This document shows positions 13,325 to 61,988 of a stretch of DNA of 64,000 nucleotides, in pieces; position 1 is the first letter of the stretch, and every line of letters begins with the position of its first letter. Origin of the DNA: Geodermatophilus poikilotrophus (GTDB taxonomy: Bacteria; Actinomycetota; Actinomycetes; Mycobacteriales; Geodermatophilaceae); assembly GCF_900111455.1 (NCBI RefSeq), contig NZ_FOIE01000006.1:1-64000 (forward strand). The letters are read 5' to 3'. Position numbers and translations under genes: made by a program. The notes beneath the pieces were generated by a model, which was given only the letters and a program-made list of their open reading frames with translations, did no database searches and was not told the origin of the DNA.

Positions 13325-14449
13325 TCAGGACGCAGGCGACCCGAGCCACAACCTGCCGACCAGCGAGCTCCCGCCGGGGGTGCCCACCGGCTCCCAGCGG
13401 GTCGTCCAGCCCTCGGCGTGCAGCTGCACGACGACCGCACCGACCAGCGCCCCGAGGTTCAGCGCGGCGGTCGTGGTGGCCCGCTCCGGCAGGTGCACGT
13501 CGACCACGCCGTCGCCCTCGCCGCCGTAGCGGATGACCACCGGGAACTCCGGCAGGGCCGCGGTCGCCACCCGGAAGGCGGCGGCGACGGCGTCGAGCTC
13601 GCCGTCGCGGGGGACCAGGTCCCCGCCGGGCACCCGCGTGGCCACCAGGTCGCGGCTGCCGTAGGGGAACAGGTCGCCGGGCCCGAGGCGGACCAGCGGC
13701 CGGGTGCCGGCGTCCTCGGCCGGCGGGTCGAACGGCAGCCCGCGGACGACGGCCACCGGGATGCCGGCCAGCTTGCCCTTCACCAGGTCCGCGGCAGCGG
13801 CCAGCTCGTCGACGAGGGCCACCTGGGTGGTCTCCAGCCGGTTGCCGTGGGCGTCGACCGCGCCGCGGTGGTCGACCAGCGCGGGGATGCCGGCCGAACC
13901 GACGGCGACGTCGGTCAGTCCGTCCCGCCAGGTGCGGCCGAAGGTGTCACTGACGATGACCGCGACCTCGACGCCGAGCAGCCCGCGCAGCCGGTCGCGC
14001 AGGGCCCGGGCCGAGGCGTCGGCGTCCTCGGGGAGCAGCACCAGCGCGTCGCCGGACACGTTGGAGGCGTCGATCCCGGCCGCCGCGACCACCCAGCCCT
14101 GCGGCGTCTCGACGATCTTCAGCGGGCCGCGCCGGGCGACCACGCGCACCGTCTCCGCGTCGATCGCCCGCTGCCGCACGGCCTCCCGGTCCTCACCGGG
14201 CGCGACGGGCACCAGCCGGCCCTCGACCTTGGACACCACCTTGGAGGTGACGACGACGACGTCGCCGTCGGCCAGCCAGGGCGCCGCACCGGCCACCGCC
14301 GCGGCGAGGTCGTCGCCGGGGGCGAACTCCGGCAGCCCGGCGACCGGGTGGACCGAGATCCCATCCGGGACCCCGGGGGGTGGCGCCCCTGCAGGGCCCC
14401 GCCGCGAGCCTGCGAGCGGTGGGGGGCAGGGGGGTCCTTTCTCAGGCAC
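13325..14449 (-). CDS. fbiB: Coenzyme F420-0:L-glutamate ligase (CofE/FbiB type) with short C-terminal extension
   Basis: Adds gamma-linked glutamates to F420-0. The CofE domain starts near [18 protein letters not shown] and shows [32 protein letters not shown] and [17 protein letters not shown], all family landmarks. Mycobacterial FbiB carries a nitroreductase-like domain of about 200 residues; here only about 100 residues follow, so that domain is shortened. The only start codon that keeps the conserved N-terminus is GTG 14449, which overlaps the end of cofD by eight bases; its first 20 or so codons are a copy of the dispersed palindromic repeat and read as Pro/Gly/Arg-rich sequence. Start confidence is therefore low although the gene call is firm. 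Confidence 0.85.
14382..14441 (-). repeat. Dispersed palindromic repeat, copy 1 (inside the apparent fbiB N-terminus)
   Basis: Reads on the minus strand directly after the cofD TGA, from GAAAGGACCCC to GGGGCGCC, with the core CGCTCGCAGGCTCG. About 85% identical by eye to copy 2. It is the only copy that falls inside an apparent coding frame. Confidence 0.85.
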
Positions 14450-15401
14450 GGGCGGCGTCGAGCGCGGCCCGTGCCATCGCCGCGGTCGCCTCGGGGGAGG
14501 ACATGAGCAGCGGGACGGCGCGGACGTCGACACCGGGGACGTCGGCGCGGTCGCCGGTGTGCACCAGCCAGGCGTCGAGCAGCCCGCCGGCGGAGCGGGC
14601 GCCGTAGTGCCGCCCGACCCCCTCGGCGCTGACCTCGACGCCGAGGACCGGCAGGCAGCGGTCGGCCATCCCGCGCACCACCGCGCCCGAGACGATCGGG
14701 GAGACGCCCACGACCTGGCCCCGGGTCGCCAGCAGCGCCTGCCGCAGCCCGGGGACGCCCAGGATGGTGCCGACCGACACCACCGGGTTCGACGGCGCCA
14801 GCAGCACCGCGTCGGCGCCGGCGAACGCCTCCACCACCCCGGGGGCCGGCTTCGCGGCGTCCACCCCCACCTGCACGAAGGCGCGGGCCTCGGGCTCGGC
14901 GCGGTGCCGCACCCACCACTCCTGGAAGTGCACCGCCTGCTGCCGCCCGGTCCCCGGGTCAGCGACCACGACGTGGGTCTCCACCCGCTGGTCGCTCATC
15001 GGCAGCAGCTCCACGCCCGGCTGCCAGCGGTCGGCGAGCGCCGCGGTCACCTGGGACAGCGGGTAGCCGGCGTCGAGCATCCGGGTGCGCACCAGGTGGG
15101 TGGCCAGGTCGCGGTCGCCCAGGCCGAACCAGGTCGGCTCGGCCCCGTAGGCGGCCAGCTCCTCCTTGACCGTCCAGCTCTCGCCGGCCCGGCCCCACCC
15201 CCGCTCGGGGTCGATGCCGCCGCCGAGGGTGTACATCACGGTGTCGAGGTCCGGGCAGATGCGCAGCCCGTGCACCGTCACGTCGTCCCCGGTGTTGACC
15301 ACCGCGGTGAGCCGCGCACCGGGCGCGGCCGCGCGGAGTCCGGCCAGGAACCGGGCCCCGCCGACCCCTCCGGCGAGGACGACGATGTGCACGAAAGTCA
15401 T
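14442..15401 (-). CDS. fbiA: 2-phospho-L-lactate/phosphoenolpyruvate transferase of F420 synthesis
   Basis: CofD/FbiA joins the lactyl- or enolpyruvyl-guanosine diphosphate donor to the deazaflavin FO, giving (dehydro-)F420-0. The 319-residue protein begins [18 protein letters not shown], the glycine-rich GDP-binding signature, followed by [28 protein letters not shown] (pieces: [11 protein letters not shown] and [11 protein letters not shown]), [11 protein letters not shown] and [14 protein letters not shown], all conserved in FbiA. The start at 15401 matches the family; the upstream extension to 15470 runs into the whiB2 promoter region. It lies upstream of and overlaps fbiB, as in M. tuberculosis, and is divergent from whiB2. 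Confidence 0.94.
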
Positions 15402-15518
15402 CGTGCCCGATGGGCACTTGTCCACTGTTCGCCGGGCGTGTCGAGGTGTGCAGCGAGAAGTGACGAACACCGTGTGACTGCCGGGGCTGGTGTGACGTGG
15501 CGCTTACACCGGGCGGAG

Positions 15519-15548
15519 TTGACGCCCCCACAACGACACGCGTGTAAT
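15519..15548 (+). promoter_or_regulatory. Candidate sigma-70 promoter of whiB2
   Basis: TTGACG (15519-15524) and TGTAAT (15543-15548) are separated by 18 bases, about 85 bases before the whiB2 ATG. This is the best -35/-10 pair in the window. Two TGTGAC half-sites (near 15474 and 15491) and a TTACAC (15504-15509) lie just upstream. Confidence 0.55.
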
Positions 15549-15633
15549 TCCCGCGGTGTCAACGAGTGCCGAGCGGCCCGGGAACGTCCCGTGGAACGCA
15601 CATCGGGACGGCAGCGAGAGGGGACGCATCGTC

Positions 15634-15972
15634 ATGGCAGAGGTCTCGTGGTTGAGCGACTACGTCAGCGCGTCGGAGCGGACCGCCGACCGCGGCCCGG
15701 CGGGCCACGAGCAGGGCTTCGCGGGCCTGTGGAGCATGGGCCTGGCGGCCGAGGCCCAGTCCTGGCAGGAGCGCGCCCTGTGCGCCGAGACCGACCCCGA
15801 GGCGTTCTTCCCGGAGAAGGGTGGCTCCACCCGCGAGGCCAAGAAGATCTGCACCGGCTGCGAGGTCAAGGCCGAGTGCCTCGAGTACGCGCTGGCCAAC
15901 GACGAGCGCTTCGGCATCTGGGGCGGGCTCTCCGAGCGTGAGCGCCGCCGGCTGCGCCGCCGCGCGGGCTGA
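15634..15972 (+). CDS. whiB2: WhiB-family Fe-S transcriptional regulator (WhiB2/WhmD type)
   Basis: A 112-residue regulator. Four cluster-binding cysteines are visible at residues 50, 73, 76 and 82 (C-X22-C-X2-C-X5-C), followed by the GIWGG turn at 94-98 and an Arg-rich tail (RERRRLRRRAG) for DNA or sigma-factor contact. WhiB2/WhmD proteins control septation and sporulation-type cell division. Position next to the divergent fbiA-fbiB pair is the same as in M. tuberculosis, which supports the WhiB2 assignment. ATG 15634 has a GAGAGGGG ribosome site; the frame is open upstream to 15556 but that part holds promoter sequence. A dispersed repeat begins right after its TGA. Confidence 0.92.
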   Translation: MAEVSWLSDYVSASERTADRGPAGHEQGFAGLWSMGLAAEAQSWQERALCAETDPEAFFPEKGGSTREAKKICTGCEVKAECLEYALANDERFGIWGGLSERERRRLRRRAG

Positions 15973-16030
15973 GAAGGGACCCCCTGCCCCCCGCCGCTCG
16001 CAGGCTCGCGGCGGGACCCTGCTGGGGGCC
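15973..16030 (+). repeat. Dispersed palindromic repeat, copy 2 (after whiB2)
   Basis: Starts directly after the whiB2 stop, from GAAGGGACCCCC to CTGGGGGCC, with the core CGCTCGCAGGCTCGCGGCGGG. The outer GC arms can pair, so it may also act as a terminator. Confidence 0.85.
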
Positions 16031-16076
16031 GAGCCGCCCGCACACAGCGCCGTGTGACACCACCCCGAGCTGTTCC

Positions 16077-16109
16077 CACAGCCGCCGACGGACCCCGTCG
16101 GCGGCTGTG
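16077..16109 (+). terminator. Strong hairpin terminator downstream of whiB2
   Basis: A perfect 15-bp stem (16077-16091 with 16095-16109) with a 3-base loop, followed by a short T-rich stretch (GTGTTGTTC). It separates whiB2 from the hypothetical gene starting at 16124. Confidence 0.75.
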
Positions 16110-16123
16110 GTGTTGTTCGGGGC

Positions 16124-16942
16124 GTGGCGACCCCGGGTGTGCGCACCGTGAGCGGCCGGACCGGCGTGGTGCGCGAGCTCCGCGCGGCCGGCCCGCTGCT
16201 CGCGGCGCTGCACGCCCCGGTGACCGCCCGCCCTCCCTGGCTGACCGCCGCGCTGGCCCTCGTCGCCGGCCCCCGACCCGTCGCCGTCGTGGTCGACCCG
16301 CCCGGCGGCACGGGTGCCCCGCGGGCGCTCGCGACCCTGGTCCTGCGCGGCGGCCCGCGGCTCACCGTCACGCTGCTCGGCGACGGCCTGCCGGTGCCCG
16401 GCGGCGCGGCCCCGGCCCGACTGCCGGCCCGGGACGACGCCGCTGCCGAGCGGCTGGCGGCCGGCGTGCTGGACCTGCTCGACCGGGTGCGCCGGCCCTG
16501 GACGCTGCGGCTGGCCGGGTTGCCCCTGGGCGACCCCACGCTGCGCGCGATCGGCCGGCTGCGGCCCCAGGCGGCGTTCGCCAACGCCCGCAGCGCCCGC
16601 CTCGTCGACACCCTCGGCGAGGCCGGTCCGGTGCGCCGCACCCGGGACCCCGCCGAGGTCGAGCGCCGGCTGCCCGAGCTGCTGGCCGCAGAGCCCGACC
16701 GCCGGGTCCGCACCGCGCTGCGGGTGGCCACCCGGCTGCACGCCGCGATCGGCCAGGTCGAGCTCGCCACGGTGGCCGACGGCGACCGGCTGCGAGCCGG
16801 ACTGCTGACGCTGGTCGACGGCGCCGACCGGCGGCCGTGGTGGGCCACCCCGGATGCCGGCCTGCGCACCGAGATGGGCGCGCCGCTGGTCTCGCTCACC
16901 CTGCCCGGTGGCGGGCCCGCGGCGCTGCTGCGCCGGCGGTGA
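16124..16942 (+). CDS. Conserved-looking hypothetical protein
   Basis: A 272-residue protein that I do not recognise. It is soluble, Ala/Arg/Leu-rich, with no signal peptide, membrane segment or obvious catalytic motif. Alternating strands and helices, such as PRPVAVVVDPP, PRLTVTLLGDG and PWTLRLAGLPLG, suggest an alpha/beta fold, perhaps a degenerate acyltransferase, but this is a guess. GTG 16124 is 14 bases after the whiB2 terminator hairpin. Strong third-position GC bias across the whole frame supports it as coding. It converges with the membrane protein gene at 17009. Confidence 0.6.
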   Translation: MATPGVRTVSGRTGVVRELRAAGPLLAALHAPVTARPPWLTAALALVAGPRPVAVVVDPPGGTGAPRALATLVLRGGPRLTVTLLGDGLPVPGGAAPARLPARDDAAAERLAAGVLDLLDRVRRPWTLRLAGLPLGDPTLRAIGRLRPQAAFANARSARLVDTLGEAGPVRRTRDPAEVERRLPELLAAEPDRRVRTALRVATRLHAAIGQVELATVADGDRLRAGLLTLVDGADRRPWWATPDAGLRTEMGAPLVSLTLPGGGPAALLRRR

Positions 16943-16948
16943 CGATGA

Positions 16949-16976
16949 GGGGCGGCCCCGTCCACGGCGCCGCCCC
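16949..16976. terminator. Possible bidirectional terminator hairpin
   Basis: GGGGCGGC (16949-16956) and GCCGCCCC (16969-16976) form an 8-bp stem with a 12-base loop in the 66-base gap between convergent genes. Modest in length, so tentative. Confidence 0.4.
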
Positions 16977-17008
16977 GACCCTGCGCGGCGGCGGGCCGGC
17001 GACCCGGC

Positions 17009-18019
17009 TCAGCCGGCGTACCGGACGGCGTTGAGTCCCGGCTCGTCGACGCTGGCGGCGCGGTCGGTGCCGAGGAACAGCGTGCCCTCGGCGGCCGCCG
17101 CGCCGTTGCGGACCGGCCCGGCGGGGGAGACGGTGACCGTCAGGTCGTACCCCCGCCCGGTGTAGGCCGGCGCGCTGCCGATCGGCCGCGTGTAGGTGGG
17201 GAAGCGGCCGGTCAGCCGGAGGTCGCGGCCGTCCCTCGTCACGGTGAGGGCAGGAGCGGGCAGGTCGGCGTGCTCGGTCCGCGACCGCACGCAGCCCGCG
17301 GCGGCGGGGTCGGTGGGCGGCTCGAGGGCCAGGCAGTTCCAGGTCGGCAGCCGCAGGTGGGCCAGCGCCGTCCGCCCGTCCCCGGCCGCGGTCACGCTCA
17401 CCGACGGGTAGGCCACCGTCGTCCCCACGGCCTGCCGCTCGACGACGATGCCGCCGAACGCCAGCCGGGCCACCACGCCGTCCTCGCCCAGCGGCACCGA
17501 CCGGTCGGCCAGCACCCCCGCGCCGCCCTCGCCCGGCAGCGGGTCCACGGGCACGGCAGGCAGCGCCGGGGAGGTGGCCGGGGCCGGGGTGGTGCCCACC
17601 GGCGGGGGCGGCGCCACCGGGCCGGGAGCGGGGGTGCGCGGCGGGTCGCCCCCGTCGCGGGTCGCCACCGCCACGCCGGCCAGCGCGGCCACCAGGACCA
17701 GCCCGGCCGCCGCCATGCCGGCCAGCGCGCGGCGGCTGCCGCCCGGCGTGCCGGCAGGCTCGCCGCCGACGTCCGCCACGGGTGCGGCGACCGGCGCGGG
17801 GAGGGCGCCGGGCGTGCCGGGCGGGCTCTGGAGGAAGCGCGGGAGGTCGTCGTCCGGCCAGCGCGATGCGGGGCGGGCGGGCGCCGCCGGTTCCCGCCTC
17901 GGGCGGGGAGGGGACGGGTTCCGCGGCCGGGTCAGCGCCACCGCGGCCAGGCCGGCCAGCGCCAGCAGCGCCAGGGCCAGCACGACCCAGGGGACGGCGG
18001 CCGGCGCGGAGGAGTCCAT
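17009..18019 (-). CDS. Two-segment membrane protein with Pro-rich linker and extracytoplasmic domain
   Basis: A 336-residue protein. One hydrophobic segment lies at residues 9-29 and a second near 98-118 (LAGMAAAGLVLVAALAGVAVA); the stretch between is Pro/Arg-rich. After the second segment comes a Pro/Ala/Thr-rich linker and a beta-rich domain of about 160 residues with two cysteines (WNCLAL and GCVRSR) that could form a disulfide outside the membrane. The domain's FGGIVVERQAVGTTVAYPSVSV style resembles secreted ligand-binding folds but matches no family I know. No operon partner is evident; the metallopeptidase-like gene upstream is separated by a repeat copy. Confidence 0.6.
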   Translation of the reverse strand: MDSSAPAAVPWVVLALALLALAGLAAVALTRPRNPSPPRPRREPAAPARPASRWPDDDLPRFLQSPPGTPGALPAPVAAPVADVGGEPAGTPGGSRRALAGMAAAGLVLVAALAGVAVATRDGGDPPRTPAPGPVAPPPPVGTTPAPATSPALPAVPVDPLPGEGGAGVLADRSVPLGEDGVVARLAFGGIVVERQAVGTTVAYPSVSVTAAGDGRTALAHLRLPTWNCLALEPPTDPAAAGCVRSRTEHADLPAPALTVTRDGRDLRLTGRFPTYTRPIGSAPAYTGRGYDLTVTVSPAGPVRNGAAAAEGTLFLGTDRAASVDEPGLNAVRYAG

Positions 18020-18060
18020 CGCGACAGAGCATCGCAGCCGCCCGGGAGGGCGACCGTGGA

Positions 18061-18106
18061 GGCGGCCGCCTGCAGGGTCCCACCGCGAGCGCGCGAGCGG
18101 GGGGCC
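18061..18106 (-). repeat. Dispersed palindromic repeat, copy 3 (shortened)
   Basis: Begins immediately after the stop of the metallopeptidase-like gene and reads GGCCCCCCGCTCGCGCGCTCG then GGTGGGACCCTGCAG. The first outer arm (GAAGGACCCC) is missing, so this copy is decayed. Confidence 0.7.
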
Positions 18107-18562
18107 TCACCCGGTGGGGTCGATCTCCTCCGGATCGCGCCCCAGCAGGACGGCGACCTGGTCGACGACGACGTCGCGGACCAGGTCGGCGAGGTCGTCG
18201 CGGTCGTGCGCGCGCAGCTCCAGCGGCCGGCGGTAGACGACGATCCGCGGCGGCACCTCCCGGGTGCCGTCCCGGTGCGCGGGCAGCACCCGGGCCAGCG
18301 GCACGCTGCCGTCGTCGAGCACGTCGGCGTCGAGCACCACCTCGTCGGGGCTGGTGTGCTCCACCCAGGGCACGTCCTCGACGGCGAACTCGACGCCGGC
18401 GAGCTCCTTCTCCCACCGCCGCTCGAGGTCCTCGACCGCGTCGAGGACCAGGTCGTCGAACTGCGCGGCGCGACTGCGGGCCAGCGGGACGCCGTCGGGC
18501 ACCAGGCGGCCGCGCAGCCCCCGGCCGTGCCGGTCGCGGCGGGATCGGGCGGGTCGGCTCAT
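18107..18562 (-). CDS. Metallopeptidase-family protein lacking the HExxH motif (Rv3259-like)
   Basis: A 151-residue protein matching the minimal zincin family PF06262 in layout: Arg-rich N-terminus, FDDLVLDAVEDLERRW, VPWVEH, PPRIVVYRRPLE and the final helix. Active relatives have HEIGHHFG in that helix; here the aligned residues are DQVAVLLG, so all zinc ligands are absent and a catalytic role is unlikely. A gene of this type (Rv3259) sits between whiB2 and the DUF3499 gene in M. tuberculosis, as here. A TACGCT box lies 10 bases before its ATG. It is divergent from the DUF3499 gene. Confidence 0.75.
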   Translation of the reverse strand: MSRPARSRRDRHGRGLRGRLVPDGVPLARSRAAQFDDLVLDAVEDLERRWEKELAGVEFAVEDVPWVEHTSPDEVVLDADVLDDGSVPLARVLPAHRDGTREVPPRIVVYRRPLELRAHDRDDLADLVRDVVVDQVAVLLGRDPEEIDPTG

Positions 18563-18735
18563 GACGGGTGCGAGCGTACGGCCGGGGGGATCGGGGGCGC
18601 GCCCGGTGCGGGGCCGGGCACGGGCCGCAGCGGGCGCGCGACGGGGTGCACGGGGCCGTCGTGCAGGATGGGACTGCTGCTCCGCGGGGGCGCCGAAACC
18701 CGGTGCGCCTGATGCCAACCACCCGGGTACGCGGC

Positions 18736-18741
18736 TACTGT
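18736..18741 (+). promoter_or_regulatory. -10 box (TACTGT) for a leaderless mini-ORF ahead of the DUF3499 gene
   Basis: TACTGT ends 7 bases before GTG 18749. That GTG opens a five-codon frame whose TGA overlaps the GTG of the DUF3499 gene, so this promoter would make a leaderless message beginning with the mini-ORF. Confidence 0.5.
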
Positions 18742-18748
18742 GCGGTCC

Positions 18749-18766
18749 GTGAGGAACCGGTGGTGA
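18749..18766 (+). CDS. Possible leaderless mini-ORF (VRNRW) coupled to the DUF3499 gene
   Basis: GTG AGG AAC CGG TGG TGA. Five codons placed 7 bases after a -10 box, with the stop overlapping the next start as GTGA. It may serve only to load ribosomes for the DUF3499 gene. The peptide itself need not have a function. Confidence 0.35.
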   Translation: MRNRW

Positions 18767-19113
18767 GGCAGTCACGTCGCTGCTCGCGCAGCGGCTGCGC
18801 GCAACCGGCGGCAGCGACCTTGACCTACGTGTACGCGGAGTCGACCGCTGTCGTCGGCCCGTTGGCGACGTTCTCGGAGCCGCACAGCTACGACCTCTGC
18901 GAGTTCCACGCCGGGCGGCTCACCGTGCCGCGCGGCTGGGAGGTCGTCCGGCACGAGATCGACGTCGAGGACTCCGGCCCGACCGGCGACGACCTGCTCG
19001 CCCTGGCCGACGCCGTCCGCGAGGCCGCCCGGCCCGAGCCGCCGCGCAACCCCGCCGACGACGGCAGCGGCACCCGCCGCGGCCACCTGCGGGTCCTGCC
19101 CGACATCACCTGA
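18763..19113 (+). CDS. DUF3499 family protein (Rv3258c-like)
   Basis: A 116-residue protein found in actinobacteria. It starts VRQSRRCSRSGCAQPAAATLTYVYAES (pieces: RRCSRSGC and ATLTYVYAES) and continues TAVVGPLATFSEPHSYDLCEFHAGRLTVPRGWEVVRHE (pieces: PHSYDLCEFHAGRLTVPRGW). Cysteines in CSRSGC and DLC plus the His of EFH could form a zinc site. Function is not known. The start is fixed by family consensus; GTG 18763 overlaps the stop of a possible leaderless mini-ORF. The same neighbour order (Rv3258c before pmmA) is kept in M. tuberculosis. Confidence 0.88.
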   Translation: MRQSRRCSRSGCAQPAAATLTYVYAESTAVVGPLATFSEPHSYDLCEFHAGRLTVPRGWEVVRHEIDVEDSGPTGDDLLALADAVREAARPEPPRNPADDGSGTRRGHLRVLPDIT

Positions 19114-19161
19114 GCCAGGACCAGCCCTCCACGCCACGACCTCGCTGCGGGGTCCCGCCGT

Positions 19162-19219
19162 CGGCCCCGTCCCGAGGCGCGTCCCGAGCCTGCGAGGGGG
19201 GAGGAGGACGGGGTCCTCT
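19162..19219 (-). repeat. Dispersed palindromic repeat, copy 4 (abuts the pmmA -10 box)
   Basis: Reads on the minus strand from AGAGGACCCCGTCCTCC to GGACGGGGCC, with the core CTCGCAGGCTCG. Its end runs directly into TAGGGT, the -10 box of the phosphomannomutase gene. Confidence 0.8.
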
Positions 19220-19224
19220 AGGGT
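19219..19224 (+). promoter_or_regulatory. Leaderless -10 box (TAGGGT) of pmmA
   Basis: TAGGGT ends 6 bases before GTG 19231 and overlaps the last base of repeat copy 4. No ribosome-binding site is present. Confidence 0.6.
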
Positions 19225-19230
19225 CCGTCC

Positions 19231-22062: not shown

Positions 22063-22126
22063 CCCGATCGAGGGAGCTCCCCCGGCGGGTGTGGTCCGCG
22101 TCATGCCCACGGGGCGGAACGGCCAG

Positions 22127-22132: not shown

Positions 22133-22140
22133 CCCGGCTG

Positions 22141-24553: not shown

Positions 24554-26041
<1,488 letters not shown>

Positions 26042-26390
26042 GGAACGGTCGCCCACCCGGGCGGTGGCCGTCACCGGGACCGACGGCCACGGACAGCACG
26101 AGTGCCCCGGTTCGTCGATGACGAACCGGGGCACTCGTGCGTGTGAGCCGACCCGGCCCGCGAGGAGGAGCGCTACCGGTCGTTCCAGGTCCCTTCCCTG
26201 CGTGGTGCCCCGAAGGCGTGGCGGACCGCCTGGTCGCCGCGGTCACGGCAGCGCGCGCACCGCTGCAGCCGGTGAGCGCCGCGCGGGTGCTCGTGTTCTG
26301 AGGTCCCACCCGCCCCAGTGGGTCACCGCTCCACCGGTAGGGGGAGGGCACGCCTGTGCATTCCACCACCGTGCCGCCGAGCGGCGCAGA
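26042..26390. other. Intergenic region between ahcY and mtrA (349 bp)
   Basis: The first 100 bases hold two terminator hairpins. The rest up to the mtrA start has no gene that I can support; a short plus-strand open stretch ending at 26301 has coding-like composition but no recognisable start or domain and may be a gene remnant. In M. tuberculosis the thymidylate kinase gene (tmk) lies here; it is absent from this window. Confidence 0.6.
26064..26139 (+). terminator. Tandem hairpin terminators of ahcY
   Basis: The first hairpin pairs GTGGCCGTC (26064-26072) with GACGGCCAC (26082-26090). The second is a perfect 20-bp stem (26097-26116 with 26120-26139) with a 3-base loop. No U-tract follows. 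Confidence 0.8.
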
Positions 26391-27107
<717 letters not shown>

Positions 27108-30665: not shown

Positions 30666-30725
30666 AGAAGGGACCCCGCGTCCCCCCATCCCTCGCACGC
30701 TCGGGTGGGGCCCTGACGCGGGGCC
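30666..30725 (+). repeat. Dispersed palindromic repeat, copy 5 (after lpqB)
   Basis: Starts directly after the lpqB TGA with AGAAGGGACCCCGCGTCC and ends GACGCGGGGCC, so the outer arms pair. The core is CCTCGCACGCTCGGG. It may terminate the mtrA-mtrB-lpqB operon. Confidence 0.85.
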
Positions 30726-30737
30726 GTTCCAGCACGT

Positions 30738-30785
30738 CACCGTCCCCCCGCCGCTCGCAGGCTCGGTGGCCCCGTCCAGGGCACC
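30738..30785 (+). repeat. Dispersed palindromic repeat, copy 6
   Basis: Truncated copy on the plus strand: CACCGTCCCCCCGCCGCTCG, then CAGGCTCGGTGGCCCCGTCCAGG. The core CGCTCGCAGGCTCG is intact but the GAAGGACC arm is missing. Confidence 0.7.
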
Positions 30786-30836
30786 GCCCCGAGCGTGCGA
30801 GGGGTGGGTGCGGAGGACGGGGTCCTCCCGCTGGTG
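30782..30836 (-). repeat. Dispersed palindromic repeat, copy 7
   Basis: On the minus strand it reads GGAGGACCCCGTCCTCCGCA, then CCCACCCCTCGCACGCTCGGGGCGG. It faces copy 6, so the two could form a larger inverted structure. Confidence 0.75.
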
Positions 30837-30916
30837 CGGGGCCGTTCCAGCAGGTCACCGTCCACAGGTGCGCGGCGACGCCGCGCGCGGCGCGCGCGGG
30901 GCACGAAGCTGGGGGA

Positions 30917-38134: not shown

Positions 38135-38190
38135 AACAGGACCCCTGCTCCCCGCCACTGTCGAGCTCGCGGCGGGATCCTGCAGGGGCC
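38135..38190 (+). repeat. Dispersed palindromic repeat, copy 8 (after secA)
   Basis: Begins directly after the secA stop with AACAGGACCCCTGCTCCCC and ends CTGCAGGGGCC. Its core is diverged (ACTGTCGAGCTCGCGG) but both GC arms pair. Confidence 0.8.
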
Positions 38191-53239: not shown

Positions 53240-53244
53240 GCCGC

Positions 53245-53781: not shown

Positions 53782-53950
53782 GGCGGGACCGCACCGTCGC
53801 CGCGGCAGGCCGGCCCGCCACTGCCTCCGCACCCGAGCCGCCCGGAACGGGGACCGGCGGGCGCCGGGACGCCGCACCGCGCTCCGCCCTGCCGCCGGTC
53901 CGTCGCGCCGGGCCTGTGGCCGGCCGTTGGATGCGGCAGTCTGGGCGCTG

Positions 53951-54826: not shown

Positions 54827-54829
54827 CGT
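54824..54829 (+). promoter_or_regulatory. Leaderless -10 box (TAGCGT) overlapping the PHP stop codon
   Basis: TAGCGT ends 7 bases before ATG 54837. Its first three bases are the TAG stop of the PHP gene, an unusually compact arrangement. Confidence 0.6.
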
Positions 54830-54836
54830 GACCGGC

Positions 54837-55691: not shown

Positions 55692-55692
55692 T

Positions 55693-55750
55693 GGCCTCGT
55701 CCCGGGCCCCGCCCTGAGCTTGCGAAGGGTGGGGAGGACGGGGTCCTTCT
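55693..55750 (-). repeat. Dispersed palindromic repeat, copy 9 (between RecB-like and MpaB genes)
   Basis: Minus-strand copy starting directly after the MpaB stop with AGAAGGACCCCGTCCTCCCC and ending GACGAGGCC, core CTTCGCAAGCTCAGG. It fills the whole gap between the two convergent stop codons, so it may be the shared terminator. Confidence 0.85.
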
Positions 55751-56623
55751 TCAGGCCGTGAGCGGCTCGACCGACGCGACGCGCTCCCGGGCCGACCGCA
55801 CGATCGGCGACTCGCGCACCTGCGACGGCACCGTCAGCGCCGCCCGGCGGAACGCGCGCACGGCGGCGGTCGCCGCGGTGTCGGTCAGGCCGTAGCCCGG
55901 CAGTCCGTAGAGCCGGCGCGCCCACCGGGGCAGCGTGGCTGCCCCCAGGGCCGCCAGGGTGCTCCACGCGGGCCGTGCCGGCGTCAGCAGCTGCACCCAG
56001 GCCGGCATCGGCGGCAGCAGGACGAAGCGGGAGGCATCCCGCGCCGCCGGGGTCACCGCCAGCTGCAGTCGGGTGCGCTGCAGGTAGGCGTCCAGCTCCG
56101 CCACGCTCGCCGGCACGTCGCCGGCCTCGCAGCCGATGAGCACCGCGGCGGTCACCTGCTCGGCGACGTAGCGGTCGGCCTCGGCGTCGGTCAGCGGCAC
56201 CCCGGCCCGCCGGGCGACCGACAGCAGGGAGTCGACCTCGCAGCAGTGGACCCACAGCAGCAGGTCGGCGTCGTCGACGGCGTAGCTGCGACCGGTGGTC
56301 TCCTCGACCGCCGACTTGCGCCGGTGCATGCCGCGCACCCGGCGCACCGACCGCAGCACGTCGCGGCGGGTGCCGAAGGTCAGGGTGGCGACGTACTCCG
56401 CGGTGCGGGTCAGCCGCGCCCACGGGTCCTCGGCGAAGGCGGTGGAGAAGCGGGCGACGCCGTCCATGGCGACCGGGTGCAGCGCCTGCAGCAGCAGCGC
56501 CCGGATGCCGCCGACGGAGAACGCCGGGTCGGCGTGGATCCGCCAGCTGACGCTATCGGGGCCGAAGAAGCCGAGCAGGTCCTCCTCGGCCGTGAAGTCG
56601 TCGACCGACGGCAGCCGGTTCAC
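55751..56623 (-). CDS. MpaB-family oxygenase (DUF2236)
   Basis: A 290-residue protein. FFGPDSVSWRIHADPAFSVGGIRALLLQALHPVAMDGVARFS (pieces: DSVSWRIHADPAFSVGG and ALLLQALHPVAMDGVA) near 17-60 is the MpaB/Lcp-type start, with RVRGMHRRKSAVEETTGRSYAVDDADLLLWVHCCEVDS (pieces: RVRGMH and DADLLLWVHCCEVDS) near 95-130 supplying the conserved His and Asp. Relatives are heme oxygenases such as the mycophenolic acid MpaB' and latex-clearing protein. Substrate here unknown. Its GTG start overlaps the stop of the alpha/beta hydrolase gene as GTGA. Confidence 0.86.
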   Translation of the reverse strand: MNRLPSVDDFTAEEDLLGFFGPDSVSWRIHADPAFSVGGIRALLLQALHPVAMDGVARFSTAFAEDPWARLTRTAEYVATLTFGTRRDVLRSVRRVRGMHRRKSAVEETTGRSYAVDDADLLLWVHCCEVDSLLSVARRAGVPLTDAEADRYVAEQVTAAVLIGCEAGDVPASVAELDAYLQRTRLQLAVTPAARDASRFVLLPPMPAWVQLLTPARPAWSTLAALGAATLPRWARRLYGLPGYGLTDTAATAAVRAFRRAALTVPSQVRESPIVRSARERVASVEPLTA

Positions 56624-57549
56624 CGGAGCGCTCCGGCCGGAGCCGGCACGGAGGCCCAGAAGTCGAGCAGGACCGCACACGTGCGGGGCGGGTTCTCGAT
56701 GGCGGGGGAGTGGACGGCGCCGGCGATGACCTCGTGCCGGGCGCCGAGCCGGCGTGCCATGTCCGCCTGCACGGCCGGCGTCCACGCGTCGTCCGCGGCG
56801 CCGTGCGCCACCAGCACCGGGACGCCGGTCGCCGCGAGCTCCGCGACCCGGTCGGGTTCGCTGGTCATCGCGTCGGCCATCCCGCGCAGGCCCGCGGCGC
56901 TGTTGGCGAGGAACCGCCGGGCCAGGAACTCGCGGGTCGGCTCCGGCACCAGCTGGGCCCTGGGGTCGGTCATCGCCAGCTGCTCGAGCGTCTCGTGCAC
57001 CAGCGGCACGCCGCCCTCGTCCAGCAGGGGGGTGAGGTGCTGGAGCAACTGCGCCCGGCTGCCCCCCAGCCGCGACGGGCCGGAGCCGAGCAGGGTGAGC
57101 GTGGCGAACGCCGCCGGCTCGGCCAGGACGGCGGCCCGGCTGACCAGACCGCCGAAGGAGTGACCGACCAGGTGCAGCGTGGCCCGGCCCTCGGCACGCA
57201 GCTGCCGCGCGACGGCGACGAGGTCGCCGGCCAGCTCGGCGACCGAGTAGCGCGCCGGGTCGTCGGGCCCCGGTGACTCGAACTGCCCCCGCTGGTCGAG
57301 GGCGACGACGCGGTACCCGGCGGCGCACAGCGGGCGCAGCAGCGGCGCGAAGTCCTCCTTGCTGCCGGTGAAGCCCGGGACCAGCAGGACGGTGCCGCGC
57401 TCCGCGTCGCCGCCGGTGTCCAGCGCCGCCAGTGGACCCGCGCCGCCTTCGAACGCGTGGTGCCGCGCGTCGTGCTCGGCCAGCTGGCGGAGGTCGTCGG
57501 GCGCGATGGAGACGGGAGCGCTGTCGTCCGGACCGCCGGGCATCACCAT
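56620..57549 (-). CDS. Alpha/beta-fold hydrolase
   Basis: A 309-residue hydrolase. GTVLLVPGFTGSKEDFAPLL near 52-71 supplies the oxyanion loop, the nucleophile elbow GHSFGG near 122-127 the Ser, VPVLVAHGAADDAW near 242-255 the Asp, and GAVHSPAIENP near 277-287 the His. The layout is that of esterase/lipase-like or haloperoxidase-type enzymes. Substrate unknown. ATG 57549 (or ATG 57543 two codons later) begins the frame, with GGTGGG upstream. It overlaps the MpaB gene start by four bases, so the two probably act on one pathway. Confidence 0.86.
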   Translation of the reverse strand: MVMPGGPDDSAPVSIAPDDLRQLAEHDARHHAFEGGAGPLAALDTGGDAERGTVLLVPGFTGSKEDFAPLLRPLCAAGYRVVALDQRGQFESPGPDDPARYSVAELAGDLVAVARQLRAEGRATLHLVGHSFGGLVSRAAVLAEPAAFATLTLLGSGPSRLGGSRAQLLQHLTPLLDEGGVPLVHETLEQLAMTDPRAQLVPEPTREFLARRFLANSAAGLRGMADAMTSEPDRVAELAATGVPVLVAHGAADDAWTPAVQADMARRLGARHEVIAGAVHSPAIENPPRTCAVLLDFWASVPAPAGALR

Positions 57550-57597
57550 GCCCACCAGTGAACATCGGCGACGGCACTCATGCAGTCGACCCGCCAC

Positions 57598-57656
57598 GGC
57601 CCCGTCCAGAGGCTCGCCGCGAGCTTGCGAGCGGGTGAGGAGGACGGGGTCCTCCT
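57598..57656 (-). repeat. Dispersed palindromic repeat, copy 10 (after the beta-propeller gene)
   Basis: Minus-strand copy right after the TGA of the beta-propeller gene: AGGAGGACCCCGTCCTCC through GGACGGGGCC, with core CGCTCGCAAGCTCG. Both outer arms pair perfectly over at least nine bases. Confidence 0.87.
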
Positions 57657-58796
57657 TCAGCGATGAGCGGTGACGCGGTCGGGCAGCTGGTGGACGACGA
57701 CCGGGCCGGCCACGGTGACCAGCCCACCGGCGTCCAGCTCGGGGGTGGCGACGCGCTGCAGCTCGTCGCCGGTGGCGAGGTCGCGGAGGACGACGGCGTC
57801 GCCCTCGGGCACCGGGATCGACGTCCCCGCGGGGAGCAGCGCCCGGTCGGCCTCGCCGGCGGGCACGCCGGTGGCCGGGGTGCGCCAGGAGACCACGCCG
57901 GTGCCCTGGTCGACGACGGTCAGCGTGCCGTAGGCCCACACGAGCGCGCTGGTGCCGACGCCGGTCGCGAGCACCTCGTCCGCGGCCTCCGCGACGGGCG
58001 GACCGAGCGGGGCGCCGTCGACGCCGGCGAGCAGCTGCACGCCGTCGTCGCCGGCGACCACGACCGCCTGCTCGACGCCGGCCAGCGTCGTCCCCCCGGT
58101 CACGTCCCGGCTCCACAGCGGGGTGCCGTCGTAGCCGTCGAGGAGGCGCACCTGCACCGACCCGCCGCAGGTCTGCAGGACGGCGACGCCCGCGCCGCCG
58201 ACGTCGCCGTCCGCGAACGTGCAGCCCTCGTCCGGAGCGGCCCGCCAGCGGATGCTGTCGCCGACCGGGTCGAGGGTGAGCACGCCGGTCGGGCTGGTCG
58301 CCAGCACGATGCCCTCGGTGCTGGACAGCACTGCGTCGGGACGCAGGTCGAGGTTGCGGGTCCAGGCTCGCACGCCGGTGTCGACGGCGAGCGCGACCGC
58401 CTCGTCGCAGCGGTCCTCGGTGCCGAACACGGCGACGACGCGGCCGCCGACGACGGTCCAGTCGCAGAGCCGGGCGTTGGCGCGGGTGTAGCGCCAGGCC
58501 TCCTCGCCGCTGTCGACCCCGAGCGCGCGCACCCCGTGCCCGTCGCCGACGACGACGCGGCCGCCGTCCGCGGTCGCGCGGACCGCGCCGCCGGTCGGCG
58601 TCGTCGGGGCGGACCAGGCGGCGGAGACGGCACCGGGCGGTGTCCCGCTGGGGACGCCGGCCGGTGCCGCGGTGGTGCTGACGGTGGCGGCCGCGTCCGA
58701 GCCCCGCCACAGCAGGATCGAGACGACGACCAGCGCGAGGACGGCCGCCGTCCACGCCCACACCCGCAGCGGCGGACGCACCACCGGCCGGCCCAC
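57657..58796 (-). CDS. Membrane-anchored PQQ-like beta-propeller protein (Rv3212-like)
   Basis: A 379-residue protein. One membrane segment near residues 12-31 (VWAWTAAVLALVVVSILLW) is followed by a Ser/Thr/Pro linker and a propeller of repeated strands: VVVGDGHGVRALGVDSGEEAWRY, IVLATSPTGVLTLDP, VQVRLLDGYDGTPLWSRD and LTVVDQGTGVVSWRTP are successive PQQ/BamB-type blades. Paired cysteines (LCDW, RCDEA, GCTFA, QTCGG) may form disulfides outside the cell. In M. tuberculosis a similar gene (Rv3212) sits beside rhlE, as here. The start is a GTG at 58796. Confidence 0.82.
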   Translation of the reverse strand: MGRPVVRPPLRVWAWTAAVLALVVVSILLWRGSDAAATVSTTAAPAGVPSGTPPGAVSAAWSAPTTPTGGAVRATADGGRVVVGDGHGVRALGVDSGEEAWRYTRANARLCDWTVVGGRVVAVFGTEDRCDEAVALAVDTGVRAWTRNLDLRPDAVLSSTEGIVLATSPTGVLTLDPVGDSIRWRAAPDEGCTFADGDVGGAGVAVLQTCGGSVQVRLLDGYDGTPLWSRDVTGGTTLAGVEQAVVVAGDDGVQLLAGVDGAPLGPPVAEAADEVLATGVGTSALVWAYGTLTVVDQGTGVVSWRTPATGVPAGEADRALLPAGTSIPVPEGDAVVLRDLATGDELQRVATPELDAGGLVTVAGPVVVHQLPDRVTAHR

Positions 58797-58816
58797 CCTG
58801 TGCAGGGGCCCTCCCT

Positions 58817-60445
58817 CTAGGCGGCGGGCTCGGCCGAACCCCGGCCGGACCCGCCGCGACGACGCCGGCGGCGCTTGCGGGCCGGGGACTCGCCGGTCGC
58901 GGCGGCCTCGCCGGCCGGCACCTCCGCGGGGGCGTCCGCGGCCGCGGCGCCGGCCGCGGCGGCACCGCTGCTCCGGGTGCGCCGGCGCGGACGGCTCTTG
59001 CGGGCGCCCTCCGGCTTCTCCTCGTCCTCACGGCCCGGGCCGCGGCCGCCGCCGGAGCGGGTGCGCTTGCCGGTCTCGCCGAGGTCCTCGACGGTCTCGG
59101 CGTCCAGGCCCTCGCGGGTGCGCTGCGCGCGGGGCAGCCGGCCGGTCGCGCCCTCGGGCACGTCCAGGTCGGTGTAGACCCACGGCGAGGTGGAGTAGGT
59201 CTCCGGCGGGTCGGTGAAGTCCAGGTCCAGCGCCTTGTTGATCAGCTGCCACCGGGGGATGTCGTCCCAGTCGACCAGCGTGACCGCGACGCCGGTGCTG
59301 CCGGCGCGGCCGGTGCGGCCGATCCGGTGCACGTAGGTCTTCTCGTCCTCGGGGCACTGGTAGTTCACGACGTGGCTGACGCCGGTGACGTCGATGCCGC
59401 GGGCGGCGACGTCGGTGGCAACCAGGACGTCGACCTTGCCGCTGCGGAAGGCGCGCAGCGCCTGCTCGCGGGCTCCCTGGCCGAGGTCGCCGTGCACGGC
59501 CGCCGCGGCGAACCCGCGCTCGACCAGCTCGTCGGCGACCTTCTGCGCGGTGCGCTTCGTGCGGCAGAACACCATCGCCAGGCCGCGGTCGCGGGACTGC
59601 AGCACCCGGGAGAGCAGCTCGGGCTTGTCCAGGTTGTGCGCCCGGTAGATGAACTGGGTGGTCTGCGGGACCGTCGACCCCTCGTCGTTGCCGTGCGCCC
59701 GGATGTGCGTGGGCTGGGTCATGAAGGACCGCGACAGCGTCACGATCGGGCCGGGCATCGTCGCGGAGAACAGCATCGTCTGCCGCTTCTCCGGGACCAT
59801 CGCGAGGATCCGCTCGATGTCGGGCAGGAAGCCCAGGTCGAGCATCTCGTCGGCCTCGTCGAGGACCAGGACGCCGACCTTCCCCAGGATCAGGTGGCCC
59901 TGCTGAGCCAGGTCGAGCAGCCGCCCCGGGGTGCCGACGACGACCTCGACGCCGGCCTGCAGCGCGGCGACCTGCGGCTCGAAGGCCCGGCCGCCGTAGA
60001 TGGCCTGCACGCGGACGCCGCGCTTGGCGCCGGCGGTGCCGAGGTCGCGGGCGACCTGCACGCACAGCTCACGGGTGGGGACCACGACCAGCGCCTGCGG
60101 GACGCCGTCGCCGCCCTCGGAGGCGGGGACCACGCGCTGCAGCAGCGGGACGCCGAAGCCGAGGGTCTTGCCGGTGCCGGTGCGGGCCTGGCCGATGAGG
60201 TCGTTGCCGGCCAGCGCCAGCGGGAGGGTGAGCTCCTGGATGGCGAAGGTCCGGGTGATGCCGGCCTCGGCCAGCGCCGCGACCACGTCGGGGTGGACGT
60301 CGAAGTCGCTGAACAGCGGCGCGTCCTCGGCGACGGGGGCGCCGCCGAGCTCCTCGACGGTCTGCTCGAGCTGCTCGGGCGCGGGAGCGCCGGTCTCGGC
60401 GTGCTCGAGCTCGGGGGTGGTGGGGGTGTTCTCGGTGGAGGTCAG
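58817..60445 (-). CDS. rhlE: DEAD-box RNA helicase RhlE, apparent CTG start
   Basis: An ATP-dependent RNA helicase for RNA decay or ribosome assembly. The Q motif (LFSDFDVHPDVVAALAEAGITRTFAIQ, pieces: FSDFDVHPDVV and RTFAIQE) is near residues 33-62, then ARTGTGKT (I), VVPTRELCVQVA (Ia), VLDEADEML (II), LFSATMP (III), VATDVAARGIDV (V) and YVHRIGRTGRAG (VI). The C-terminal 120 residues are Arg/Ala/Gly-rich and end in a KRRRRRRGG tract for RNA binding. The only ATG/GTG that keeps the Q motif is GTG 60640, but the sequence between is not coding-like. CTG 60445 begins LTSTENTPTTPE after a purine-rich GGCGAGAG, and is the likely start. Confidence 0.85.
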   Translation of the reverse strand: MTSTENTPTTPELEHAETGAPAPEQLEQTVEELGGAPVAEDAPLFSDFDVHPDVVAALAEAGITRTFAIQELTLPLALAGNDLIGQARTGTGKTLGFGVPLLQRVVPASEGGDGVPQALVVVPTRELCVQVARDLGTAGAKRGVRVQAIYGGRAFEPQVAALQAGVEVVVGTPGRLLDLAQQGHLILGKVGVLVLDEADEMLDLGFLPDIERILAMVPEKRQTMLFSATMPGPIVTLSRSFMTQPTHIRAHGNDEGSTVPQTTQFIYRAHNLDKPELLSRVLQSRDRGLAMVFCRTKRTAQKVADELVERGFAAAAVHGDLGQGAREQALRAFRSGKVDVLVATDVAARGIDVTGVSHVVNYQCPEDEKTYVHRIGRTGRAGSTGVAVTLVDWDDIPRWQLINKALDLDFTDPPETYSTSPWVYTDLDVPEGATGRLPRAQRTREGLDAETVEDLGETGKRTRSGGGRGPGREDEEKPEGARKSRPRRRTRSSGAAAAGAAAADAPAEVPAGEAAATGESPARKRRRRRRGGSGRGSAEPAA

Positions 60446-60773
60446 TGCTCTCGCCTCTGGTCTGCTGGGGGACCGGCTCGGGGGCGCGATCGCGCCGCTG
60501 TCGCACCAGTCCCGGTCGGGTGTCGCGGGATCGGTTCCAGCGCCGACGCGGCCAGCAGGAACCGGGCCACACCTCGGTGTCGACCCGGGAGGGGACCCCT
60601 CGGGGCATCGTCTCCAGCGGTCGTCAGCGCACAGATACACAGCGAACCCGAGGGCTCGCCGATTCCCAGTCTAGCGTGCGCACCGGTTAGCCTCCCTCCG
60701 CCGCGCGGTCCGGGGCGCCGAGCCACCCCGTCCGGGGCAGGCGCCAACGTCCCACCGATCCCGGGAGCTGCCA
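60446..60773. other. Divergent intergenic region rhlE / ferritin-like gene (328 bp)
   Basis: No gene is supported here. On the minus strand TAGACT (near 60670) is a candidate rhlE -10, which would give a leader of about 200 bases, as is common for cold-regulated helicase genes. On the plus strand TAGCGT (near 60673) and TAGCCT (near 60688) are candidate -10 boxes for the ferritin-like gene. The two strands' boxes overlap, so the promoters face away from each other. Confidence 0.5.
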
Positions 60774-61424
60774 GTGGACGCGGTCGACCAGCAAGCCGTC
60801 GTCGACCTGCTGGGGGTGCTGTCCTACGCGGAGCTGACCGCCTTCGACCGGCTGGCCGAGGACGCGCGGCTGGCGCCCACCCTGGACGGCCGGGCCGCGC
60901 TGGCGCAGATGGCGGCCGCGGAGATCGACCACCACCGCCGGCTGACCGCGCGCCTCACCGAGCTCGGCGCCGAGCCGACCGCGGCGATGCGCCCGTTCGT
61001 CCCCGCGCTGGACGCCTTCCACGAGACCACCCGGCCGCGCACCTGGTTGGAGGGGTTGGTCAAGGCCTACGTGGGGGACGGCCTGGCGTCGGAGTTCTAC
61101 CGGGAGATCGCCGGCTTCCTGCCCGACCCCGACCGGGGGTTGATCCTCGACGTGCTCGCCGACACCGGCCACGCCGACTTCGCCGTCCGCGAGGTGCGGG
61201 CGGCGATCGCGACCGACCGCACGCTCTCCGGCCGGCTGGCCCTGTGGGGACGGCGGCTGGTGGGCGAGGCCATGCGGCAGGCGCAGGCGGTGATCGCCGA
61301 GCGCGACCAGCTCGCCGCGCTGATCCTCGAGGGCACCGGCGACCTCAACGGCATCGGGCGGCTGGTCGAGCGGATCACCAGCGCGTACACCGATCGGATG
61401 AAGACCCTCGGCCTGAACCCGTGA
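60774..61424 (+). CDS. Ferritin-like-fold protein (Rv3210c-like)
   Basis: A 216-residue all-helical protein. LLGVLSYAELTAFDRLAEDARLAP near 9-32, AAAEIDHHRRLTARLTELG near 45-63 and AVIAERDQLAALI near 170 provide Glu and His residues (the EIDHH pair, the Glu of YAELTAF) placed like a di-iron carboxylate site. The family (tRNA-modifying hydroxylase MiaE-like, or simple ferritin-like) is conserved in actinobacteria next to rhlE. Whether it binds iron and what it oxidises is not known. GTG 60774 follows a GGGAG site. Confidence 0.8.
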   Translation: MDAVDQQAVVDLLGVLSYAELTAFDRLAEDARLAPTLDGRAALAQMAAAEIDHHRRLTARLTELGAEPTAAMRPFVPALDAFHETTRPRTWLEGLVKAYVGDGLASEFYREIAGFLPDPDRGLILDVLADTGHADFAVREVRAAIATDRTLSGRLALWGRRLVGEAMRQAQAVIAERDQLAALILEGTGDLNGIGRLVERITSAYTDRMKTLGLNP

Positions 61425-61511
61425 CGGACCCGGTGCCCCGCGCGCTCGGCGCGGGCCCCTGCACCGGGGCCGGGTGACCGGTGTCCGGTGGGAGCGCATC
61501 CCCGGACACGA

Positions 61512-61549
61512 CGACGGGGCGCCCCCGCCGCTGCGGAGACGCCCCGTCG
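61512..61549. terminator. Hairpin terminator between ferritin-like and DUF3107 genes
   Basis: CGACGGGGCG (61512-61521) and CGCCCCGTCG (61540-61549) form a perfect 10-bp stem with an 18-base loop. Just upstream a GTGTCCGG/CCGGACAC pair (near 61480-61508) gives a second hairpin. Confidence 0.7.
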
Positions 61550-61566
61550 GGACGTGCGGATGGCCC

Positions 61567-61803
61567 TCAGGCGCCCGCGATGAAGCCCACGCGCCGCTGG
61601 TCGGCCTGCGCGATCTCCACGTAGGCGATGCGGTCGACGGGGACGAGCACCCGGCGACCACGGTCGTCGACCAGCGTCAGCAGGCCGTCCTTGGTCGCGC
61701 CGGACATGGCCTTCGCCACCTCGGCAGCGATCTCGTCGGGGGTCTTGGGGCTGTCGATGACCAGCTCCCGGGGGGAGTGTTGGACACCGATCTTGACTTC
61801 CAC
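61567..61803 (-). CDS. DUF3107 family protein (Rv3208A/TB9.4-like)
   Basis: A 78-residue protein. It starts VEVKIGVQHSPRELVIDSPKTPDEIAAEVAKAM (pieces: VKIGVQHSPRELVID and TPDEIAAEVAKA) and ends VDRIAYVEIAQADQRRVGFI, the DUF3107 pattern found throughout actinobacteria. Function unknown; the M. tuberculosis homologue is the TB9.4 antigen next to the same TetR gene. The GTG at 61803 has a GAGGAGG ribosome site, and TAGCGT (minus strand, near 61840-61845) is its likely -10. The longer open frame upstream is non-coding. Confidence 0.92.
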   Translation of the reverse strand: MEVKIGVQHSPRELVIDSPKTPDEIAAEVAKAMSGATKDGLLTLVDDRGRRVLVPVDRIAYVEIAQADQRRVGFIAGA

Positions 61804-61911
61804 GGGGGATGCCTCCTCGAGTTGCGCGGCTGATCCCCACGCTAGTGCAGCGGGCGATCCGCCGACCTGCGGTGCAGGTGTGCCGTCAGCGAACGTGGCC
61901 CCGCTGCAGTG

Positions 61912-61970
61912 GGAGGACCCCGTCCTCCTCACCCCTCGCAAGCTCGGGGCGAGCCTCGGGACGGGGCCGG
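61912..61970 (+). repeat. Dispersed palindromic repeat, copy 11 (between DUF3107 and TetR genes)
   Basis: Reads GGAGGACCCCGTCCTCCTCA, then CCCCTCGCAAGCTCGGGGCG and GGGACGGGGCC on the plus strand. It is the best-preserved copy and shows both the outer arm pair and the inner CCCC/GGGG pair. The 18 bases from it to the TetR stop resemble a second truncated end. Confidence 0.87.
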
Positions 61971-61988
61971 GGGGCAGCGGGCCCCTCT

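Follow-up and report, generated by a model that had tools for sequence, protein, structure and literature searches.

Palindromic repeats past stop codons in Geodermatophilaceae: a probable family of non-autonomous, REP-like mobile elements

Repetitive extragenic palindromic (REP) sequences are given as 20-40 nt in length, and TnpAREP is regarded as the enzyme that moves the GTAG REPs. By definition a REP carries GTAG or GTGG 0-2 nt 5' of a hairpin (PMC6006769), TnpAREP cuts at a CT either 5' or 3' of the REP, with the E. coli enzyme needing a bulge (PMC8266576), and GTAG REPs sit near the 3' ends of open reading frames (ORFs) and often provide the TAG stop of the flanking ORF (PMC3733652). In this article I consider a palindromic repeat of the actinobacterium Geodermatophilus poikilotrophus, starting from positions 1 to 64,000 of contig NZ_FOIE01000006.1 (forward strand), the whole of which I call the window and which corresponds to contig C14:1-64000 of a 4.83-Mb genome in 18 contigs. 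A preliminary description of the window had recognized a dispersed palindrome, often placed at stop codons, and had left it between a REP-like mobile element and a lineage-specific terminator or RNA-processing element. Judging from comparisons of sequence within and between genomes, these repeats are probably REP-type mobile palindromes, a non-autonomous family that resides in the Geodermatophilaceae.

The repeat is a 54-nt imperfect hairpin, GGACCCCGTCC…TCGCARGCTC…GGACGGGGCC, with a bulged A and a preceding purine leader; written with its GGACCCC end first, the reference unit is GGACCCCGTCCTCCTCACCCCTCGCAAGCTCGGGGCGAGCCTCGGGACGGGGCC, taken from the copy at 61915-61968. The hairpin runs from GG/CC through the bulged A, an outer stem of 8 bp, an internal loop and an inner stem of 7 bp with one mismatch to the conserved 10-nt loop TCGCARGCTC, and in some copies the 5' purine leader includes a G(T/A)RG tag and 2 nt more. 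No Rfam family matched the window at its gathering score. With the GTAG REPs and REPINs of Proteobacteria the repeat has in common a mismatched or bulged hairpin, an unpaired GT[AG]G tag 0-2 nt 5' in part of the copies, copies in the hundreds, positions near ORF 3' ends where it may provide the stop, and some intragenic copies (PMC3733652, PMC6006769, PMC3116915). It differs from GTAG REPs in its length of ~54 nt, its 10-nt loop, a GARG that is commoner than GTRG at stops, an exact 4-nt register past TGA, copies that nest in old loops, a family in which no Y1 transposase was found, and a host lineage of high-GC Actinobacteria. As regards REPINs, in which the mobile unit is a larger hairpin of two inverted REPs, single hairpins are the usual form here, and nested copies build larger hairpins secondarily. 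CGTC-tagged REPs are likewise palindromic repeats without a dedicated transposase in the account of PMC3733652, but CGTC is not among the frequent 5' tags here, and the Rickettsia palindromic elements, which also lie in frame in protein genes, are 105-146 bp long (PMC2229807), whereas the present repeat is shorter and chiefly intergenic.

The repeat occurs throughout its genome. A covariance model, R1, was built from the nine intact window copies, whose own matches are therefore by construction. A genome scan in which the best 150 of 6620 candidates were scored gave at least 150 copies, with 148 of the 150 reported matches at 57 bits or more, and the 21 copies in the contiguous C7:1-340 kb, scaled to 4.83 Mb, extrapolate to ~300 copies per genome; the preliminary description had named few or no further copies as the outcome that would speak against it, and this did not occur. 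R1 matched 34 of 37 Geodermatophilaceae genomes, G. poikilotrophus included, with nothing in G029, G032 and G034 and with counts, among the best ~94 candidates scored per genome, of 2 in G028, 18 in G020 and 21 in G036. It matched none of 24 genomes from other families of the same order (best 94 candidates per genome) and, in a class-wide draw of 197 genomes at E<=1e-4 (best 29 candidates per genome), G. poikilotrophus alone and 0 of the 196 others, both under stricter filters through which weak relatives could escape. An exact pattern search in named genomes found at least 110 stretches, and the 80 listed belong to Geodermatophilus, Blastococcus, Modestobacter, Goekera and another member of the Geodermatophilaceae. 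Collections of plasmids, phages and viral contigs gave no match. Within the G. poikilotrophus genome (G000), a stretch of lower GC content (0.68-0.72) and partly low coding cover, L033-L037 (C7:40-140 kb), is copy-free and lies inside a gap of ~196 kb without copies; it is perhaps an acquired island, which would suggest that the repeat spreads slowly.

The most regular property of the repeat is its position relative to stop codons. Genes were called with an in-house codon log-odds script rather than a published gene finder (809 genes in 864 kb), and part of the sampled stretches were picked for having matches, with three others in a set of 20 (C7:700-760 kb) picked for lying close to such matches, so that the 105 copies in these 864 kb of the G. 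poikilotrophus genome do not give a density. In a test that allowed -6 to +12 nt from the stop, 57 of the 105 copies begin -2 to +7 nt from a sense stop, whereas random placement in the same intergenic regions on a random strand anchors 3.3%. The threshold for this sample and for the C7 scan was E<=0.01, so that some of the weakest matches may have arisen by chance (14 of the 105 fall below 40 bits), and without the matches below 40 bits the count is 48 of 91. The mode of the distance is 4 nt, with 34 copies, followed by 2 nt and 5 nt with 7 each. Similar proportions were found among congeners (26/49) and named family loci (74/130), again with a mode of 4 nt; the congener list omits 5 of 54 matches (E 0.0017-0.0036), family loci L051-L130 were selected for holding a strong match, the two sets overlap by 3 copies, and the 284 pooled copies reduce to 266, 281 or 278 usable ones, depending on the test, once repeats, short flanks and odd 5' ends are dropped. 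The preliminary description was thus correct in seeing a preference for stop codons and mistaken in calling it unexpected for a random REP, since nearness to stops is already known for REPs (PMC3733652), 446 of 4,072 predicted E. coli REPs lying <=15 nt from a stop codon (PMC12306157).

The junction itself is informative. Stop usage at anchored copies (49 TGA, 7 TAG and 1 TAA, against 675, 95 and 7 in all called genes) is ordinary overall, and at the 4-nt distance the stop is TGA in 98% of 88 distinct copies. The base before TGA at these 4-nt copies is C in 29 of 33 cases in G. poikilotrophus, against 66.6% of 626 other TGA stops (p 0.012), in 12 of 13 in congeners, against 57.1% of 238 (p 0.017), and in 36 of 41 in the family set, against 64.1% of 465 (p 0.0017), the last two counts being unchanged by deduplication. 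The four nucleotides past the stop read RGRA, and because this is unlike the C/G-rich background the leader is part of the element, giving a junction CTGA^RGRA-GGACC in which C-T precedes the tag and the T belongs to the stop. In copies at 2 nt the stop sits within the leader itself (of 23, TGAAA in 8, TAGAA in 6, TAGGA in 3 and TGAGA in 3). The GT[AG]G tag of REPs occupies positions -6 to -3 in 25 of the 126 unanchored copies, compared with 1 of 126 at a control position.

Many of the copies without a stop of their own lie inside older copies. Of the 125 distinct unanchored copies, 44 are flanked on both sides by another copy's complementary arms, where a reversed-arm control gives 12; for anchored copies the figures are 6 of 153 and 6, and in 24 of the 44 nested copies there is a sense stop <=60 nt upstream. 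A frequent nested junction is ..CACCG or ..CTCG of the outer copy, then T-R-G-R-A, the new copy, and (T)GCGGCGAG.. of the outer copy, the loop having been replaced. Of the 104 usable copies in the G. poikilotrophus sample, 56 are anchored and 20 nested, 12 lie next to another copy, and the other 16 fall in none of these classes. The repeat also lies within genes: among the 105 sampled copies there are 8 cases of a called gene overlapped by >30 nt, and in a heavy-metal P-type ATPase (HMA, E1-E2_ATPase) the linker that joins the HMA domain to the membrane part carries a copy in 7 of 22 congener loci readable by eye, with 1 remnant, 14 without a copy and 1 further locus unreadable. These seven copies, 4 antisense and 3 sense, have differing arm types and are all in frame, with linker sequence lost around them; some may be shared by descent, and the two orientations imply no fewer than two events. 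The junction CTG^A(A/G)AGAGG is present in two of the three sense copies and missing from the third; because it lies outside a stop codon there, it favours a DNA target over selection alone. Another copy lies in frame behind the domain of a GNAT protein. As an aside on the same linker, the repeat at L011:1501-1554 encodes the peptide RPRPEARPEPARGEEDGV.

Orthologous intergenic sites hold a copy in some congeners and none in others. The site 57555-57657, occupied in G. poikilotrophus, is empty in G009 and G013; conversely 10638-10661 is occupied in G012 and empty in G. poikilotrophus, G016, G008 and G005, and 26041-26391 lacks a copy in G. poikilotrophus and has one in 7 of 7 comparable relatives. 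Downstream of secA there are 109 nt with a copy in G. poikilotrophus and 15 nt without one in G008, and R1 has no match at this site in G008, G013 or G005. On the 3' side of the WhiB gene, inspected by eye in 23 congeners, a copy stands <=11 nt from the stop in 7 (degenerate in one of them), a variant in 2 and a more distant inverted copy in 2; the other 12 have none, several of them carrying another, unrelated-looking hairpin. At 18019 G009 has a TAA stop with a copy directly against it, and the other relatives compared there read TGA; insertion can thus remake a stop.

Taken with nesting and with in-frame intragenic copies, these occupied and empty orthologous sites make mobility the most likely explanation, and the REP-like alternative of the preliminary description gains further from the hundreds of copies and from the REP-type tag in part of them. 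High-copy extragenic palindromes are present (at least 150 copies), as for REPs, whereas neither a REP-associated tyrosine transposase (RAYT) or TnpAREP in the family genomes searched nor a size of 20-40 nt was found; the repeat thus departs from REPs in transposase and size though it behaves like them, and for this reason it is filed as REP-like. The best reading is a REP-like family, new for this lineage, and among the titles and abstract openings listed in literature searches there was no report of such repeats in Geodermatophilaceae. As for how it moves, each new copy would form as a single-stranded DNA hairpin, which a nuclease reading tag and hairpin would join behind a short CT- or CTG-type target, by analogy with TnpAREP/IS200-type enzymes, and here this nuclease would not be a recognisable Y1 transposase. 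Gene ends would then be the main surviving sites, because a leader that starts with A or bears TAG/TGA preserves the stop codon. The full proposal is offered tentatively, as a possibility less likely than not: a family-wide REP-like population would be kept in motion by an enzyme that reads hairpins and falls outside the known Y1/RAYT class, and this enzyme would insert new copies both behind CTG/CTGA at gene ends and in older copies' loops.

A different explanation, that the hairpin is a lineage-specific transcription terminator or RNA-processing signal selected on the mRNA past the stop, is compatible with mobility and I consider it unlikely. U-tract-less intrinsic terminators of Actinobacteria are also GC-rich hairpins past the stop, and the sense orientation, the exact register after stops and the copies sitting between convergent stops would all suit such a role; here, though, one dispersed sequence family is involved, present or absent among congeners, and copies occur within genes. 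Compensatory changes in the nine intact window copies, in which 7 of 18 pairs changed on both sides (14 cells; 0 of 500 shuffles as many, and 0-2 pairs when partners were slid), point the same way, but they can equally reflect a few master subfamilies. Selection on a sense RNA predicts that G·U is tolerated above A·C. Over 17 pairs of 107 distinct 54-nt copies the sense strand has 17 G·U and 34 A·C, a count that leaves out three positions, two of which are 17/36, with A·C in 88 copies, and 12/44, with T·G in 54, and the complementary strand is the more stable in 101 of 107 (mean -35.2 against -29.7 kcal/mol); both results are the opposite of sense-RNA selection, and being drawn from related copies they are not a strict test. 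There is no U tract (T makes up a fraction of 0.14 of the 12 nt that follow 4-nt copies), and convergent gene ends are not significantly favoured, with a copy at 26 of 278 compared with 30 of 491 tandem ends (p 0.11). The terminator alternative raised by the preliminary description is therefore weakened by the missing U tract, the missing sense-strand preference for G·U and the element-free orthologous sites. E. coli REPs near stops have been reported to stall ribosomes (PMC12306157, citing earlier work), and since 4 nt is within that range an effect on the upstream gene is plausible. The hairpin may influence translation termination in the gene before it or the 3' end of that gene's mRNA, which under mobility would be a side effect.

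The reading as a mobile REP-like family has its own difficulties, and they deserve to be set out together. The excess of C before TGA is modest in G. poikilotrophus by itself (p 0.012). The GTRG tag occurs in only 11 of 155 anchored copies, where GARG occurs in 38, and in unanchored copies the C-T before the tag is mostly missing, with ACCG, CTCG, GCAG and CAGG commonest in its place. At 52-58 nt the intact window copies exceed the 20-40 nt of REPs. In the G. poikilotrophus sample 28 of 104 copies are neither anchored nor arm-nested (the 12 adjacent and 16 other), and adjacency has a background, another core lying <=70 nt away in 19 of 153 anchored copies and in 27 of 81 that are unanchored and un-nested. 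Presence and absence cannot by themselves separate gain from loss; it is nesting and the in-frame copies that indicate gain. Finally, no candidate enzyme emerged from searches for Y1, RAYT, Y2, reverse transcriptase and maturase proteins, IS families lying outside the search. Y1_Tnp (PF01797), the domain that characterizes RAYT and IS200 transposases, turned up in 0 of the 112 family genomes and in 5 of 14 control genomes, so that the REP-associated tyrosine transposase which the preliminary description proposed to look for did not appear, and the NCBIfam RAYT model NF047646 (REP_Tyr_transpos) matched none of 23 congeners at E<=1. Y2_Tnp occurs in 1 of 57 family genomes, with all 14 controls silent and the sensitivity of the search therefore unproven, and general reverse transcriptases, absent from G. 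poikilotrophus, are present in 28 of the 57 family genomes; both were set aside as mobilisers.

Group II intron maturases were set aside as well: of the 23 congeners G012 alone has one, as does 1 of 14 genomes from other families. In G012 the region downstream of the WhiB gene, which carries the hairpin in other congeners, contains a reverse transcriptase with a group II maturase domain (RVT_1, GIIM; L194:16867-18117). Translated and inspected by eye, the large intergenic insertions of relatives contained no transposase gene, this maturase alone standing out, and no transposase gene was seen between neighbouring copies, of which regions L211 alone was translated.

These results also bear on the possibility that the repeats are ordinary GTAG REPs moved by a standard RAYT. 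The partial GT[AG]G tag, the bulged hairpin and the genome-wide copies fit that idea, but the silence of both the Y1_Tnp and the NF047646 models, and the restriction of Actinobacteridae in the sample of PMC6006769 to subclass 1.1 of tnpAY1, make it improbable. A miniature inverted-repeat transposable element (MITE) of an insertion sequence with a DDE transposase would account for terminal inverted repeats and for congeners that differ in presence and absence; loops and linkers, however, are replaced and not duplicated, and no target duplication was visible by eye at the compared junctions, where flanks are too diverged for this to be firm; with IS families outside the search, I give it a slim chance. 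About as slim is insertion during repair of a double-strand break at the hairpin tip of an existing copy, with no dedicated enzyme, which suits nested copies that replace the loop and the loss of ATPase linker sequence around copies and leaves the fixed 4-nt register at stops and the C before TGA unexplained. If the repeats are, as I favour, a mobile REP-like family, then a polymorphic family in a lineage with Y1 in 0 of 112 genomes makes directly testable what else moves such repeats. In addition, housekeeping genes, secA for example, have a stable hairpin 4 nt past the stop in some species and not in others, which constitutes a natural experiment on stop-proximal hairpins.

Within the window R1 finds the nine intact copies at 61.6-79.6 bits, the next best matches being 27.1 bits (18074-18104) and a weak 26.7 bits (61426-61471), and nothing above 20 bits before 14 kb or between 39 and 55 kb, in agreement with the copy-free zones of the preliminary description. 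The window thus holds nine intact copies and several damaged ones. Six intact copies lie 4-5 nt past a sense stop: 14382-14437 (reverse strand, 62.1 bits), 4 nt past the TGA of cofD/fbiA (14442, reverse; CofD in Pfam); 15977-16030 (forward, 71 bits), 4 nt past the stop (15972) of the WhiB-family gene (Whib in Pfam; "whiB2" previously), a site occupied or empty in congeners; 30671-30725 (forward, 65.7 bits), 5 nt past the stop of lpqB (30665; LpqB in Pfam); 38139-38190 (forward, 61.6 bits), 4 nt past the stop of secA (38134); 55693-55746 (reverse, 75 bits), between convergent stops and 4 nt past that of a gene ending at 55751 on the reverse strand (MPAB_Lcp_cat domain, frame 55751-57577); and 57598-57652 (reverse, 72.1 bits), 4 nt past the stop of the PQQ beta-propeller gene (57657, reverse), a site without a copy in G009 and G013. 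At 18074-18104 (reverse, 27.1 bits) a degenerate copy, supported by site comparison, lies beside the stop of a zincin-like gene (18107, reverse; Zincin_1 in Pfam) and completes the seven stop-associated copies reported before.

The other three intact copies, which have no stop of their own, lie in or beside older copies that, by eye, follow a stop or another copy. At 19163-19216 (reverse, 69.6 bits) an inverted copy adjoins a degraded older one recognized by eye at 19118-19159 (forward), itself 4 nt past the stop at 19113. At 30768-30825 (reverse, 67.6 bits) an inverted copy splits an older copy, of which the left part, together with the 3' extension GTTCCAGCACGTCACC, occupies 30726-30767 and the right part 30830-30851 (both forward, by eye). 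At 61915-61968 (forward, 79.6 bits) an inverted copy is nested in an older one, 61897-61984 (reverse, by eye), which follows the stop of a TetR gene (61989, reverse; TetR in Pfam) and whose outer arms are 61969-61984 and 61897-61909. Each of the 11 places first reported is accordingly a repeat or a remnant, with the corrections that 30738 marks the remains of an older copy, 30782 falls inside the intact inverted copy 30768-30825, and 18061 is degenerate.

Two smaller features of the unit may be added. The 10 nt of the loop TCGCAAGCTC (reverse complement GAGCTTGCGA) are also found in a Coxiella REP in table 1 of PMC2817692, with the tag on the opposite side, an identity that may be chance. A GTTCC-like 3' extension follows 28 of the 266 pooled copies, and a longer form exists in which the hairpin is followed by the same extension as at lpqB and by tandem repeats of the right half (window:30726-30890, L046 near 5403, and relatives at the 26041 site).

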